A stretch of 25,038 nt of DNA from a virus, in IMG/VR virus record IMGVR_UViG_3300030333_000871, positions 1 through 25,038 of that record; one strand, written 5' to 3'. The notes under the pieces are model-generated. The model was not told the DNA's origin. It searched no databases and saw only the letters and a list, made by a program, of their open reading frames with translations. Below are positions 2,428 through 20,774 of this stretch, piece after piece (position 1 is the stretch's first letter; each line of letters begins with the position of its first letter). A program made the position numbers and the translations under genes.

Positions 2428-2822
2428 TTTTTACCCCCCTTATTCAGTTTTGTTCTAATGTAATCTAGTTGTTGTGGAGATAAAATCCTCAAAGCCTGCT
2501 TTGCTTTTTCATTACTATAACCATAGTATTGCTTAACAAGATCAAGATCATCTATCTTTTGTTTCTTACCCCAAGGAGAAAATCTCTTTCGGGGTCTCAC
2601 GATATTTATAAGAAAATCATATTGTAACTTCTTATCTAGACCTGAATAAAGGTTCATTTCATTAGCAAATGCTAGTGTATCCATATGATGTGACAAGCAT
2701 TTGTTAATGATATATGCTGGATAATTCTTTTCCCATGCAGGATCTTCATCCATTAAGTAATCTTTATTAAGATTAATGGAATTCAGATAATCTTTAAGAG
2801 GATAACGATCATCGTATGGCAT
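2424..2822 (-). CDS. gp62: Clamp loader small subunit gp62
   Basis: Gp62 joins four gp44 subunits to form the clamp loader that opens and places the gp45 ring on DNA. The protein has 132 residues, shorter than T4 gp62 (187), as is common in cyanophages. Recognisable features are the N-terminal YPLKDYLNSINLNKDYLMDE region, the YIINKCLSHHMDTLAFANEMN helix pair and the central RPRKRFSPWGKK block. The latter is a basic segment that fits contact with DNA or the clamp. It lies between dam (14-nt overlap) and regA (ATGA overlap). The position before regA, downstream of 44 and 45, agrees with the T4 order apart from inserted genes. Confidence 0.9.
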   Translation of the reverse strand: MPYDDRYPLKDYLNSINLNKDYLMDEDPAWEKNYPAYIINKCLSHHMDTLAFANEMNLYSGLDKKLQYDFLINIVRPRKRFSPWGKKQKIDDLDLVKQYYGYSNEKAKQALRILSPQQLDYIRTKLNKGGKK

Positions 2823-3633
2823 AATTTAATAAAAGCAACTCTTTACGTTCTTGCTGATTCTTCATATAATCACCTACTGATCTCATAGTATATGTGTGAT
2901 CGTATTCTTGTGCATCCCAATCCATAAACCTTTCTAAGATTTCATTTGCCGAATTGTAAGAAACCATCATAGGACCACACCACTTGTCACAGTTCTCAAA
3001 GAACTTTTCATGGTCGAAGTACTTGTGCATCCCTCCTTTCTTTCCATACAAGTTCGATCCGATTGCGTAAGGAGGATCAAGATATGTAAAAGTATCCATA
3101 CTATCAGTGTAAAGTTCTTGGTATTCTTTGTTGGTAATTTTCCAATCTTGAATGACATCACTATACTCCACTAATTTTTCGATACCTCTCATTGAGAAAT
3201 TAGAATCACTTGCCTGTGCTGAGAAAGAACTCGATTGAGTAAGACCACTAAAACTACATTTGTTCACAACATAGAAAGCTACTGCTCTATCTTGATCATT
3301 ACCTGCATCTATTCTTCCCTTCATTTCTATAAAAAGACATCTTGCAGAATCTTGATTAGGATGAGCAATTTTTAAATTGCTCAATTCTTTTTGAAGTTCT
3401 TTACCATTGTCTCTTAACTGTTTCCAGAAATTAACCAATGGTTCATACAAGTCATTAACCCATATATCCAAATCAGGGTACATCTGTGTAACATACAATG
3501 CTACAGATCCACCACCAATAAAAGGTTCCCTGTATGATTTAAACTTAGAGAAGTTAGGAAAGAATTGTGCCATTTTTTTAACGGCACGTGACTTACCACC
3601 AGGATATCTAAGAGGGGTCTTTAAAGAACTCAT
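2809..3633 (-). CDS. dam: DNA adenine methyltransferase, Dam (D12 class)
   Basis: This 274-residue protein transfers a methyl group from S-adenosylmethionine to N6 of adenine in DNA. Diagnostic motifs are the N-terminal LRYPGGKSR (8-16), the SAM-binding EPFIGGGS (36-43) and the catalytic LDPPY (185-189). VNKCSFSG (123-130) also fits the D12 family. GATC is the usual target of this family but cannot be read from the sequence. The start at 3633 overlaps the upstream gene by 4 nt (ATGA), and the end overlaps 62 by 14 nt, so the enzyme is made with the replication proteins. Likely roles are protection from host or rival nucleases, or strand marking. Confidence 0.9.
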   Translation of the reverse strand: MSSLKTPLRYPGGKSRAVKKMAQFFPNFSKFKSYREPFIGGGSVALYVTQMYPDLDIWVNDLYEPLVNFWKQLRDNGKELQKELSNLKIAHPNQDSARCLFIEMKGRIDAGNDQDRAVAFYVVNKCSFSGLTQSSSFSAQASDSNFSMRGIEKLVEYSDVIQDWKITNKEYQELYTDSMDTFTYLDPPYAIGSNLYGKKGGMHKYFDHEKFFENCDKWCGPMMVSYNSANEILERFMDWDAQEYDHTYTMRSVGDYMKNQQERKELLLLNYAIR

Positions 3634-3824
3634 CTGTCTTTTAACTCTCTATACTTGATACGAATTTGATCTTTTAACCATGCAGATCTACTCGTTGCAC
3701 AATCATCTTTTACTAACTGGTCAAGACATTCTATAAGCGGTCCTTCATTTTGACCAAAAGAAAGATTGATGATATTGCCACCTTTACGATCTTTTAATTC
3801 GGCGACACTTTTTCTAGCTGGCAT
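3630..3824 (-). CDS. Small charged protein, ribbon-helix-helix-like C-terminus
   Basis: This 64-residue protein is conserved-looking and charged. The C-terminal half (about 26-62: an LIECLDQLV helix, then ATSRSAWLKDQIR, then KYRELKDR) has the spacing of a ribbon-helix-helix DNA-binding or antitoxin-like fold, in which SRSAWLKDQI would be the second helix. The N-terminal MPARKSVAELKDRKGGNIINLSFG could supply the strand. I see no toxin partner nearby. It overlaps pyrE by 11 nt and dam by 4 nt. The RHH assignment is a guess from pattern only. Confidence 0.65.
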   Translation of the reverse strand: MPARKSVAELKDRKGGNIINLSFGQNEGPLIECLDQLVKDDCATSRSAWLKDQIRIKYRELKDR

Positions 3825-4380
3825 TAGTAATTTCCTCCAAGTTGTAAATGCTGTAAAGTTCTAGTCCTTCTGATTCCATTGCTTCATCTATCTCTACATC
3901 TTCCTGACGATTGACAATAGAAACAACACGTTCTACACAATAACCTGCATCACGCAATTTATGTGCTGCCTTAATAGCAGATGCACCTGTTGTAACTACA
4001 TCCTCTAACACTGTAACACGAGAACCTTTTTCTGGCAAGGGGCCTTCTATCCATGCTCCCGTACCATGACCTTTAGGTTCTTTACGAACAATTAATCCAT
4101 TGATAGTTTGCTCATCCAATGCTGCTGCCATAGCAACACCACTGACAAGGGGATCAGCACCAAGAGTAAGTCCTCCTACTGCTACACTTGCTTCTTCAAT
4201 GAAGTCAAGCATCATAAAACTAACATAACATAATCCTCTACAATGTAAAGTAAGTGGTTTACAATTAACATAGTGAGGACTAATCTTACCTGAAGAAAGT
4301 TTGTATTCACCTTTACGGTAACAATCTTCCTTTAACATCCGTAATACTTCTTCACGCATGTCAGCAATATCATAAATCAT
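3814..4380 (-). CDS. pyrE: Orotate phosphoribosyltransferase
   Basis: PyrE joins orotate to PRPP, giving OMP in pyrimidine synthesis. The start at 4380 (MIYDIADMREE) gives 188 residues and only an 11-nt overlap with the upstream gene; a longer reading to 4491 would lie inside that gene. Visible features are FKLSSGK-type substrate residues (KLSSGKISPHYVNCK, about 27-41), the RKEPKGHGTG flexible catalytic loop (99-108) and the PRPP loop VLEDVVTTGAS (124-134). All are typical of OPRTases near the usual length. No other pyrimidine gene is in the window, so the phage seems to boost one step of the host pathway for nucleotide supply. The gene sits inside the replication operon. Confidence 0.9.
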   Translation of the reverse strand: MIYDIADMREEVLRMLKEDCYRKGEYKLSSGKISPHYVNCKPLTLHCRGLCYVSFMMLDFIEEASVAVGGLTLGADPLVSGVAMAAALDEQTINGLIVRKEPKGHGTGAWIEGPLPEKGSRVTVLEDVVTTGASAIKAAHKLRDAGYCVERVVSIVNRQEDVEIDEAMESEGLELYSIYNLEEITNAS

Positions 4381-4558
4381 TGTCTTCACCTGCTTCAAAT
4401 TCTTCAATCTGATCAACATAAACCTCGTTGCCAGCAATATTATATTTGTGGCCACGTTCATCTTCACCAAGATATTCAAGGGCATTCTCACCAGAGAATG
4501 TATGTTCTCTTAAGACTGCCTGAAGTCTATGGTGTAATAGTTCTACTTTAGTAATCAT
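4370..4558 (-). CDS. Small acidic protein of unknown function
   Basis: The product has 62 residues and a strongly acidic C-terminus (EEFEAGEDNDL). The middle (LEYLGEDERGHKYNIAGNEVYVDQIEEF) looks like a small beta-rich domain. The start ATG overlaps the stop of the preceding gene by 4 nt, and the end overlaps pyrE by 11 nt, which supports it being translated. I do not recognise it. Possible roles include a small acidic regulator or DNA mimic, but nothing specific supports that. Confidence 0.65.
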   Translation of the reverse strand: MITKVELLHHRLQAVLREHTFSGENALEYLGEDERGHKYNIAGNEVYVDQIEEFEAGEDNDL

Positions 4559-5012: not shown

Positions 5013-5950
5013 TTAAAATTACACTCCAACATTATCTGGGTGAGACAAGCCAATAGGTTTATCTCTTGATCTACAACGAACGCAGACTTATATTGATACT
5101 CTGCGATAATCAATACCGCAGCAGCAACACTAGGTCCATCCATCATAGGACTAAGATTATCATATAACTTTCGCATAATAATCGTAGCATCACTATCTAG
5201 GTTTTGTGTAACCCACTTCTTAACCTCAGCAAACTTCTTATCTTTAAGACATAATACTAAACTATCAATGTTAGCATCACCTAGCGTTGCGAGGATTCCA
5301 GTATCGATAGAACCTGTTGAACTATATCTTTGGAGTTCATTGAGTGTTCTTCTGAAGTCTGGGAAGTATTTTTGGATGATTTCGACAACCACTTTGTCAT
5401 TGAACCGTACTTCCTCTCTGGTAAGGATGTCTCTACACCTTTCAAAGAACTGTGCTGCAAGAGCTTGTTTAGATTTTCCACGAACATTAAAATCAATTAC
5501 TGTTGTTCTACTATGTAATGGTTCTATGATTTTATTCTTAAAGTTACACGTGAATATGAAACGGCAGTTTTTCTGGAACTCCTCAATCGAGGCCCGTAAG
5601 AGGAGTTGTACGTCGGGTGTCGTATTGTCTGCTTCATCAATAATAAGAACCTTATGACGAGATTCAGATGTAAGAGAAACAGTAGCAGCAAAGGTCTTTG
5701 CCTGATTGCGTACAGTGTCCAAGAATCGACCCTCATCAGACCCATTAATGACATAAAAATCTGCTCCTAATTCATTACACAATGCTTTCGCTATTGTAGT
5801 CTTGCCAACACCAGCAGTTCCAGACAAAAGGAGATTCGGTATCTCACCTTGATCTATAAAACTCTGGAAGGTGGTCTTCACTTCAGTAGGAAGTATACAT
5901 TCCTCAACTTTCTGAGGTCGATACTTCTCTACCCATAAAAAATCATTCAT
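5009..5950 (-). CDS. gp44: Clamp loader large subunit gp44 (AAA+ ATPase)
   Basis: Gp44 is the ATP-driven motor of the clamp loader. The 313-residue protein starts MNDFLWVEKYRPQKVEECIL, as in RFC/gp44 proteins. Visible motifs are Walker A GTAGVGKTT (44-52), Walker B VLIIDEAD (101-108), sensor 1 FTCN (133-136) and HSRT (146-149), carrying the Arg finger that replaces the SRC motif. The C-terminal third is the helical collar. The length is close to T4 gp44 (319). It overlaps purC and the next small gene by 4 nt each. With 45 and 62 in the same operon, the full clamp system is present. Confidence 0.95.
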   Translation of the reverse strand: MNDFLWVEKYRPQKVEECILPTEVKTTFQSFIDQGEIPNLLLSGTAGVGKTTIAKALCNELGADFYVINGSDEGRFLDTVRNQAKTFAATVSLTSESRHKVLIIDEADNTTPDVQLLLRASIEEFQKNCRFIFTCNFKNKIIEPLHSRTTVIDFNVRGKSKQALAAQFFERCRDILTREEVRFNDKVVVEIIQKYFPDFRRTLNELQRYSSTGSIDTGILATLGDANIDSLVLCLKDKKFAEVKKWVTQNLDSDATIIMRKLYDNLSPMMDGPSVAAAVLIIAEYQYKSAFVVDQEINLLACLTQIMLECNFK

Positions 5951-6642
5951 GCAAATTGCCTCAATTGTACGAGGATGTGCTTATATGCTTCCACTATATC
6001 ACCTTCGTCTTTTCTGAACAAGTCCTTATCAAATCTTTCTTTGGTATCCTTTTTCCAGAGTCGCATGTTGTCAGGTGATAATTCATCAGCCAGGAATAAA
6101 TCGCCGTGAGCATCGTAACCAAACTCCAATTTAAAATCTACAAGGTCAATACCCATAAGGGTGAATAAAGATTGCAACTGGTAATTAATATCCAGTGCTT
6201 GTTCTTTCATAGGTAAAGGATCAATACCCATTAGTCTTACTCTATCATAGGTAAGTAGTGGATCATCCTTAGCATCATCCTTTAAAAAATATTCAACTAT
6301 AGGTGGTTGAATAAATGTTCCTTCAGTGATGTTAGTATTCTTTACTATACTACCAGCAGCAATATTTCTAACAATAACCTCAACAGGTATGATTGTTAGT
6401 TTCTTACAGAGCATAGTATCAAGAGAAGGGCAATTAATATAATGTGATCTAATTCCCCTCTTCTCCAACATCTCAAAAAGTAATGATGATATTAAACAGC
6501 ATGTAGCACCCTTATCTTTAGGGTATTCTACATGCTTACCATTCCATGCAGTAACTCTATCATGGAATTTAATGAGGACTTTTTGTGCGTCCCCTTCTAC
6601 ATCATAAACACTTTTAACTTTTCCTTCTAGGATTGGATTCAT
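5947..6642 (-). CDS. purC: SAICAR synthetase (phosphoribosylaminoimidazole-succinocarboxamide synthase)
   Basis: PurC condenses CAIR with aspartate using ATP to make SAICAR in purine synthesis. The 231-residue length matches bacterial PurC (~237). The N-terminal GKVKSVYDV loop, signature 1 PVEVIVRNIAAGS (86-98), signature 2 LVDFKLEFG (167-175) and DELSPD (186-191) are all intact, so the enzyme is probably active. It is placed between 45 and 44, with 4-nt overlaps on both sides, so the phage makes it together with its clamp and clamp loader. Several cyanophages carry purine genes; this is the only one seen here. Confidence 0.95.
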   Translation of the reverse strand: MNPILEGKVKSVYDVEGDAQKVLIKFHDRVTAWNGKHVEYPKDKGATCCLISSLLFEMLEKRGIRSHYINCPSLDTMLCKKLTIIPVEVIVRNIAAGSIVKNTNITEGTFIQPPIVEYFLKDDAKDDPLLTYDRVRLMGIDPLPMKEQALDINYQLQSLFTLMGIDLVDFKLEFGYDAHGDLFLADELSPDNMRLWKKDTKERFDKDLFRKDEGDIVEAYKHILVQLRQFA

Positions 6643-19882: not shown

Positions 19883-19965
19883 CTCTAGGGGATGGAGTCG
19901 AACCACCAAGACTAAAAGTCAACACGGAAACAGCGTGTCGCGTTTACCAATTTCGCCACCCTAGA
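19883..19965 (-). tRNA. tRNA with leucine-type body but GUU (Asn) anticodon
   Basis: An 83-nt tRNA folds cleanly. Acceptor UCUAGGG/CCCUAGA pairs over 7 bp; D-arm is GCG/CGC with loop AAAUUGGUAAA; anticodon stem is ACACG/CGUGU; T-arm is GGUGG/CCAUC with loop UUCGACU. The variable arm is 14 nt with a GACU/AGUC stem, as in class II tRNAs. D-arm sequence and the two bases after the variable stem match tRNA-Leu. The 7-nt loop CUGUUUC puts GUU at 34-36, the Asn anticodon. Odd features are U at 37, a U1-A72 pair, and G73 instead of the A73 needed by LeuRS. CCA is not encoded. It begins 8 nt after the synthetase-like gene. Confidence 0.8.
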
Positions 19966-19973
19966 TTGAGGCA

Positions 19974-20774
19974 CTATGAAAGTGCCGAGATTATACGAGT
20001 CATACCAATGCCTCCACCTGATCTTGGGAAGAAATCAAAGGAGAGGAAGTCTTCAAGTTCTTTCTCTACTCTACTTCTACCAAACAGATCTATAATCAGT
20101 TGAGCATATTGTCCATCTGATATAGTGTAAAAGGTATCACGCATTTGATCTTTGTCGGTACTGCGTTCTGCAGAACCTATCGTCTCCATCCCATTGAGAA
20201 TAACATCAATCTTTTTACTTGTGCCATCATCATTACGTGCCATGTTCCAGAATGGTGATGTCCACTCAGGGAAGTCAGTAATCATTCCACGACTAATCTT
20301 CTCTTCATGGTCATGATCAAGTTCTTTAGTGTTAAACTTAGTAGCCCAATCATCATAAGTCTTGATCTTATTCTGTTCGTCTAGTGGTAATCCTAACCAT
20401 CGACATAACTCAATCTCCATATCTTTAAGAGCATCTACACCACCCTTCATTTCAAATTCAAACATGGGGAAGATTGTTTCATGTCTTCCTGGTACAGGAT
20501 TTGGTTCTGCCCTATAGGATGTTGAGACACAGAAAAACCCTTCTGCTGAAGGGTTGGAAAGTAATTCATATTCTAACCACATCTGACCTGTCTGAGGTAG
20601 TGGCCAAATATTACCACCGTAATTATATGTTGCTACTGTTTCTGGATCTTCACAAGCAGCAAGTATACTTAAACGGTTTTGTGTATGGACTTCTAGAAAA
20701 CCTTTAGACAAAAAAAATGACCTTAATAGGTCAACTGCATTGGAGTATTTCTTTGGGTCAATAATACTTGTCAT
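19974..20774 (-). CDS. Stand-alone class IIb aminoacyl-tRNA synthetase core (AsnRS/AspRS-like)
   Basis: The 266-residue protein has all three class II motifs: motif 1 FFLSKGFLEVHT (20-31), motif 2 with TSYRAE (R88, E90) and GRHETIF (R97, H98), and motif 3 GGGIGMTR (R260). PLPQTGQMWLE (58-68) and METIGSAER (196-204) point to the Asp/Asn/Lys subclass, closest in style to AsnRS. ATP and amino acid activation are therefore likely. It starts directly at motif 1: the ~100-residue OB-fold that reads the anticodon is absent. It may charge a tRNA without anticodon reading, act like archaeal AsnA-type asparagine synthetase, or modify a protein like EpmA. A late box lies 20 nt upstream, and the odd tRNA follows after 8 nt. 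Confidence 0.88.
   Translation of the reverse strand: MTSIIDPKKYSNAVDLLRSFFLSKGFLEVHTQNRLSILAACEDPETVATYNYGGNIWPLPQTGQMWLEYELLSNPSAEGFFCVSTSYRAEPNPVPGRHETIFPMFEFEMKGGVDALKDMEIELCRWLGLPLDEQNKIKTYDDWATKFNTKELDHDHEEKISRGMITDFPEWTSPFWNMARNDDGTSKKIDVILNGMETIGSAERSTDKDQMRDTFYTISDGQYAQLIIDLFGRSRVEKELEDFLSFDFFPRSGGGIGMTRIISALS

Follow-up and report, generated by a model that had tools for sequence, protein, structure and literature searches.

Why would a virus carry a single tRNA gene that joins the body of a tRNA-Leu to the anticodon and ends of a tRNA-Asn, placed directly behind a gene for a small synthetase-like enzyme, and what could such a tRNA be used for? The question is raised by the window studied here (the whole stretch of viral DNA that was analysed, 25,038 nucleotides), in which ARAGORN calls only one tRNA, a tRNA-Asn with anticodon gtt at positions 19,883-19,965 on the minus strand. 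A preliminary description of this DNA had read the gene as an internal identity conflict and had offered three options for the molecule, namely misreading by the host LeuRS or SerRS, specificity for the neighbouring enzyme, or service as a decoy for an anticodon nuclease. The results below point to the second of these and, more tentatively, to a role of the pair in pyrimidine synthesis.

Results

Identity of the tRNA

Read as a minus-strand cloverleaf, the gene (19,883-19,965) specifies an acceptor stem UCUAGGG/CCCUAGA followed by G73 with no encoded CCA, an anticodon loop of C32 U33 G34 U35 U36 U37 C38, and a variable arm GACU-UUU-AGUC, with every stem paired; it matches Rfam family RF00005 at 47.5 bits (gathering threshold 29), the variable arm appearing as an insertion relative to the model. 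The five features from which the preliminary description had started, that is, Leu-like D-arm and variable arm, GUU, U37, G73 and U1-A72, are thus all present. Only part of the conflict built on them holds, however. The Leu-like body and U37 are indeed odd, but GUU, U1-A72 and G73 are mutually consistent, being the same in E. coli asnT, a canonical bacterial tRNA-Asn that differs from the window tRNA by its type I body and A37 (the asnT sequence was taken by coordinates; in E. coli genomes, a canonical phage tRNA-Asn used as blastn query gave no match). That is, G73 and U1-A72, which had been counted as part of the conflict, are standard for tRNA-Asn. With tRNA-Leu the window tRNA shares the D-arm and the long variable arm, but it has GUU in place of a Leu anticodon and G73 in place of the A73 that LeuRS requires. 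Judged by these identity elements, the molecule would be a tRNA-Asn rather than a mixed tRNA, abnormal in its type II Leu-like body and U37 only, and the real clash sets a Leu-like body against Asn-like ends, with U37 on top.

Conservation among close relatives

These features are shared by the close relatives of the locus. Among the close set of 85 loci plus the window, ARAGORN found a tRNA of at least 80 nt behind the enzyme gene in 75; three more complete copies (L065, L068, L074) and three cut at the contig end (L066, L079, L082) were found by eye, the contig ends before the tRNA position in another three (L035, L055, L069), and two huge-phage records (L004, L005) have no tRNA behind the enzyme. 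All 75 ARAGORN-detected tRNAs, which correspond to 50 distinct sequences and include some duplicate phages, have a complete acceptor stem, U1-A72 and G73, with GUUU in the loop (scored by a rule that searches the loop for GTTT), and position 33 is U in 66 of them and C in nine. ARAGORN gave odd anticodon calls at five loci (L044, L057, L063, L064, L072) because of the large variable arm; all five are GUU by the loop rule. Conservation of GUU, U37 and G73, for which the preliminary description had proposed a check, is therefore complete in this set, and a relative with a Leu anticodon and A73 was not found among the 75.

The stems have been maintained as well. In an alignment of 37 relatives, 99.0% of the cells in 25 pairs are standard pairs, compared to 41-50% in slid controls, and 20 of the 25 pairs show changes on both sides, compared to 3-8 pairs in the controls; the sequences were hand-chosen from the 50 distinct tRNAs plus two found by eye, and the rows for L068 and L074 were cut by eye and are two bases off at one end. 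The earlier view that the intact stems make decay unlikely is borne out by these compensatory changes. Two candidates were rejected on these data: a tRNA pseudogene, given the compensatory stem changes and the lack of broken, uncompensated stems, and a recent mutant of a tRNA-Leu, given GUU, U37 and G73 in 75 of 75 relatives.

Position 37 sets these tRNAs apart from others in the same genomic neighbourhoods. Across all fetched loci, U37 occurs in 80 of 85 distinct cassette tRNAs and a pyrimidine at this position in none of 126 other distinct tRNAs, a control in which one of the tRNAs counted as "other", that of L072, is really a cassette tRNA miscalled as Lys. U37 suggests little use of the tRNA in decoding.

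A two-gene cassette in marine phages

The enzyme gene (19,974-20,774, minus strand, 266 amino acids) lies upstream of the tRNA on the same strand, with 8 nt separating the two. In the cyanophages P-SSM7, P-SSM2 and P-SSM5 the enzyme is annotated as "tRNA ligase", and a tRNA-Asn lies behind it in each; P-SSM7 also has genes for three extra tRNAs (Ile, Arg, Leu) in the interval from gp23 to the enzyme (L001:2720-2943), none of which is found there in the window. Starting from the enzyme, the tRNA follows in all 81 cyanophage-type sources with enough downstream sequence (75 by ARAGORN, plus the three complete and three cut copies found by eye). Starting from the tRNA, a tRNA-only pattern run against IMG/VR retrieved 80 contigs, and the enzyme is 11-100 nt upstream in 67; two others start inside the last codons of the enzyme and the remaining 11 start within 60 nt of the tRNA, so that the enzyme is present in all 69 contigs whose upstream sequence reaches 60 nt or more. 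The two contig sets overlap heavily. Membership of the tRNA in a general phage tRNA set was rejected, since no contig with 60 nt or more of upstream sequence was found to have the tRNA but lack the enzyme. Hence, a two-gene cassette of tRNA and enzyme in marine phages is well supported, and specificity for the neighbouring enzyme fares best among the three options of the preliminary description, the linkage being seen from both sides; misreading by the host LeuRS or SerRS and an anticodon-nuclease decoy received no support. The tRNA is very probably the partner of the enzyme encoded just upstream. Our search of the open-access literature (PMC) found no paper on the tRNA-enzyme cassette or on a synthetase-like replacement of PyrB.

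Between the two genes, a hairpin GGCACU-UUCAU-AGUGCC (19,970-19,986, minus strand) overlaps the stop codon of the enzyme and ends 4 nt before the tRNA. Relatives retain it under differing sequences, and its covariation is modest: in 31 rows, selected out of 45, 85.6% of the cells are paired and 17 show a change in both partners, with a +1 slide nearly as good. Perhaps this hairpin shields the 3' end of the mRNA once RNase P frees the tRNA.

More distant phage enzymes (about 50% identity; 80 loci fetched with a huge-phage query) show which parts of the cassette vary. A tRNA lies within 400 nt in 32 of the 80 loci and at about 1 kb in one more (L091), and the other 47 have no such tRNA within the fetched flanks. 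Read by eye, all 33 distant cassette tRNAs have G73, 32 have GUU and 30 have U1-A72; the residue at position 37 is most often U (24), less often A (six) or G (three). The variable arm ranges from long to none, being short in L101, L109, L134, L152 and L157, and at L108 an ordinary tRNA-Asn with A37 stands beside the enzyme, with A37 in five further loci of this set; therefore, neither the arm nor U37 is essential. Because the arm varies in this way and L108 has an ordinary tRNA-Asn, what appears constant across the cassettes is tRNA-Asn identity beside the enzyme, not the arm. One cassette tRNA, at L120 (2830-2937), has a GUC (Asp) anticodon with U37 although its neighbour is a member of the same enzyme family, and no GUC-linked change was found in the pocket of its enzyme, where residues L67 and E106 are invariant in 62 aligned rows, L120 included. 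In the enzyme tree, tRNA-bearing phage enzymes occur in several places, where well-supported branches require seven changes of label. Four contigs from bacterial bins (L167, L168, L176, L216) carry the tRNA cassette and group with the phage enzymes, and these may be phage contigs inside bacterial bins.

The enzyme is a synthetase-like core with a probable Asn-type pocket

The 266-aa product has a class II aminoacyl-tRNA-synthetase-like catalytic core (PF00152, E 5e-15), shows no other Pfam domain, and falls in phrog_29758, of unknown function. An AlphaFold2 model built with 62 sequences (mean pLDDT 92.9) matches asparaginyl-tRNA synthetase (AsnRS) best (8h53, Z 26.2, rmsd 2.1 over 240 residues), followed by AspRS (1b8a, Z 25.1), archaeal asparagine synthetase A (3reu, Z 23.5) and GenX (3a5y, Z 23.0), and AsnRS is the closest relative by fold as well as by sequence profile. 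Residues 4-266 of the model align only to residues 242-528 of 8h53, and the OB-fold anticodon-binding domain is absent. The enzyme scores far below the cut-offs of the NCBIfam models asnS (21.1 bits, cut-off 342.6) and PRK06462, asparagine synthetase A (16.7 bits, cut-off 389).

L67 takes the site of the lysine with which AspRS binds the carboxylate of its substrate, and E106 that of the AspRS aspartate, as in AsnRS; both are invariant in the 62 sequences and would make the pocket Asn-type. Class II motifs 2 and 3 are present, with their arginines R88 and R260 likewise invariant. The motif 1 proline, generally described as invariant in class II synthetases, is replaced by an invariant Q32. No added tRNA-binding part was seen in the tRNA-linked enzymes, which have the same domains as those without a tRNA, and by the rule chosen a single position differs between the two groups (M119 vs. 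L). The median charge is -19 with the tRNA vs. -10 to -15 without it, and more acidic enzymes do not look like proteins adapted to bind tRNA.

Links to pyrimidine synthesis

Cellular relatives of the enzyme (51-70% identity) are found in CPR, Bacteroidota, Alphaproteobacteria, Chlamydia and Pasteurella atlantica, mostly with no adjoining tRNA. No type II tRNA-Asn was found in any of the 11 enzyme-bearing cell genomes searched, where the best matches of the search are tRNA-Leu, and therefore the special tRNA is not needed everywhere. The commonest neighbour families over 67 enzyme lineages, by Pfam, are pyrF/pyrE-F (16) and pyrD (13), and pyr clusters occur at L194, L237, L225 and L175, with gene names read from translations and tblastn. 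Pyr genes are found near the enzyme by tblastn at 27 of 80 loci at E<=1e-4 and 24 of 80 at E<=1e-8; these are raw counts for five queries, which were taken from L194, from L185 and from the window, with the source loci counted and with no random 10-kb baseline. In a patescibacterial cluster (L233:2008-5837) a PRTase, an amidohydrolase and an argininosuccinate-lyase-like gene, so named by reading, precede the enzyme. Other recurrent neighbours are dnaX and dus homologues, also named from translations, and a tRNA-Gln(UUG) about 1-5 kb downstream of the enzyme in nine CPR genomes (L178, L179, L181, L195, L205, L219, L221, L233, L242); all of these may be plain synteny.

Among 20 enzyme-bearing genomes, picked from the 80 loci with regard to contig size, clusters and variety and hence not random, PyrB is over its cut-off in one, PyrC-multi in one, PyrC-dimer in none and CarB in four, vs. 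14, 11, one and 14, respectively, of 14 controls; the dihydroorotate dehydrogenase family is over its cut-off in 15 of the 20 and canonical AsnRS in nine. Because enzyme-bearing lineages often lose genes, we chose for a further test a bacterial order in which PyrB is the rule. In 149 genomes of this order, a sample drawn automatically with several MAGs of unstated completeness, PyrB is found in none of the seven genomes with the enzyme vs. 126 of the 142 without it (nominal Fisher p 9e-7), and PyrC-multi is over its cut-off in 0/7 vs. 109/142 (nominal Fisher p 7e-5), six of the seven having weaker PyrC-like matches; the p values overstate the evidence because the seven enzyme-bearing genomes are kin. 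That is, the enzyme and PyrB are mutually exclusive among relatives in the tested order, with p nominal and the genomes related, and a role of the enzyme family in pyrimidine synthesis is supported by these genome statistics.

The phages carry pyrimidine genes too. Pyr genes stand beside the enzyme in 12 phage loci, the tRNA being present in all of them. The window itself has a pyrE-like (orotate-phosphoribosyltransferase) gene at 3,814-4,491 on the minus strand, below the Pfam cut-off, with relatives annotated as orotate phosphoribosyltransferase. Among the named cyanophages of GenBank, the enzyme and a pyrE of the window type occur in the same three phages (six records each; a close gp23 is present in 462 cyanophage records, counting duplicates), but six marine single-virus fragments (4-66 kb pieces) have this pyrE and no enzyme match, which counts against an exact co-occurrence. 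The window also includes a SAICAR synthetase (purC) gene at 5,947-6,642 and a D12-type adenine methyltransferase gene at 2,809-3,633.

Discussion

We favor, with a probability of roughly 0.4 for the full mechanism, the hypothesis that the cassette provides an Asn-tRNA dedicated to an asparagine-using enzyme that feeds pyrimidine synthesis. The tRNA would be charged with asparagine, most likely by the host enzyme reading GUU and G73, as we infer because GUU stays constant even though the phage enzyme lacks an anticodon-binding domain. U37, the occasional C33 or A33 and the long arm would exclude the tRNA from normal decoding, and the enzyme, with its putative Asn-type pocket and class II ATP-site motifs 2 and 3, would get asparagine from, or on, the tRNA. 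Its product would be a pyrimidine precursor, proposed here to be dihydroorotate or carbamoyl-aspartate, which would be passed to PyrD and PyrE; the phage would thus bypass the feedback-controlled first steps of the host, and therein would lie the value of the cassette to the phage. In chemical terms, dihydroorotate is asparagine plus one carbonyl carbon, ring-closed, and could be derived from asparagine and bicarbonate with ATP, a route that would therefore account for the loss of both PyrB and PyrC. TsaC forms threonyl-carbamoyl adenylate by similar chemistry. In its most specific form, which we consider unlikely to be correct as it stands, the hypothesis is one of tRNA-dependent pyrimidine synthesis: Asn-tRNA would donate its asparagine to the class II enzyme, which with bicarbonate and ATP would yield dihydroorotate and so stand in for carbamoyl-phosphate synthetase, aspartate carbamoyltransferase and dihydroorotase, the phages using a purpose-made tRNA kept off the ribosome by U37 and the Leu-like body and the cells an ordinary tRNA-Asn. 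The acidic tRNA-linked enzymes and the cells without a special tRNA are contrary points for the tRNA acting as an asparagine carrier or donor.

Alternatively, the enzyme might be a minimal asparaginyl-tRNA synthetase with an orthogonal tRNA, which it would charge with asparagine for translation by reading the long arm and not the anticodon, in a manner similar to PylRS/tRNA-Pyl, such that phage translation could continue when the host tRNA-Asn is damaged or scarce. The tight cassette, the proximity to AsnRS in fold and sequence profile, the fixed GUU and G73, and the retention of class II motifs with an Asn-type pocket are all as expected for such a pair, and we regard it as possible, if doubtful. 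However, U37 and the occasional C33 or A33 are poor for decoding, no RNA-binding part has been added to the enzyme, which shows no clear difference from its tRNA-less relatives, some partners are short-armed (L101, L109, L134, L152, L157), and the pyr clusters and the exclusion of PyrB are left unexplained.

It is rather improbable, although consistent with part of the data, that the enzyme acts without a tRNA as a pyrimidine ligase using up asparagine, and that the tRNA-Asn is a separate helper serving Asn codons while asparagine is drained, adjoining the enzyme since both would be needed together. Cellular relatives without a special tRNA, the same residues in both groups and the ordinary tRNA-Asn beside the enzyme in L108 are in keeping with a ligase of this kind; on the other hand, an extra tRNA yields no more Asn-tRNA when asparagine is short, and U37 speaks against good decoding. 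Chances are very low, in our assessment, for a HisZ-like regulatory paralogue, that is, an idle core sensing asparagine or uncharged tRNA-Asn and controlling the phosphoribosyltransferase (PyrE): phosphoribosyltransferase genes do adjoin the enzyme in cells and phages, but the motif 2 and 3 arginines are invariant, unlike in an idle enzyme, and the loss of PyrB demands a replacement catalyst. An anticodon-nuclease decoy or a nuclease-resistant spare tRNA, the latter being a known sort of phage tRNA, has a slimmer chance still: an altered loop (U37) could block or attract a nuclease, but the fixed link to the enzyme is not explained, and the recurrent neighbour families, a minority of which was scanned, included no nuclease that was noticed. 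A decaying or recently mutated tRNA-Leu, finally, can be dismissed despite the Leu-like body and the tRNA-Leu best matches in cell genomes, given compensatory changes throughout the stems and GUUU and G73 fixed in 75 of 75 relatives.

Should the tRNA indeed work for the enzyme, these phages would possess a tRNA for metabolism and not for translation, and this in records that label the enzyme only as "tRNA ligase". If the enzyme replaces PyrB, the standard route to UMP has a second form in many uncultured bacteria, the lineages concerned being CPR, relatives of the Saprospiraceae and kin of the Rickettsiales. Even on a modest reading, a class II enzyme of small size and its matching tRNA represent a lead for orthogonal pairs.

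Several known systems share elements with the asparagine-tRNA-dependent enzyme favored here. ErdS uses Asp-tRNA. It is listed in Table 1 of PMC9437257 as an AspRS paralogue making Erg-Asp. It resembles the proposed system as a synthetase relative that puts a charged tRNA to metabolism, although its product is a different one, while in the phages the tRNA itself is specialised. Asparagine synthetase A and the archaeal AS-AR, a synthetase core without a tRNA-binding domain serving metabolism (PMC9437257), are of a similar type; the enzyme here differs in that it adjoins a tRNA in phages and pyrimidine clusters in cells. AsnRS shares the catalytic core and the apparent Asn-type pocket with the phage enzyme but has an N-terminal OB anticodon-binding domain, which the phage enzyme lacks. 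Finally, in PylRS/tRNA-Pyl and other dedicated pairs, a small class II enzyme stands beside its own odd tRNA; the layout is the same, and the phage pair differs by its Asn anticodon, by the absence of any reassigned codon seen, and by its pyrimidine context.
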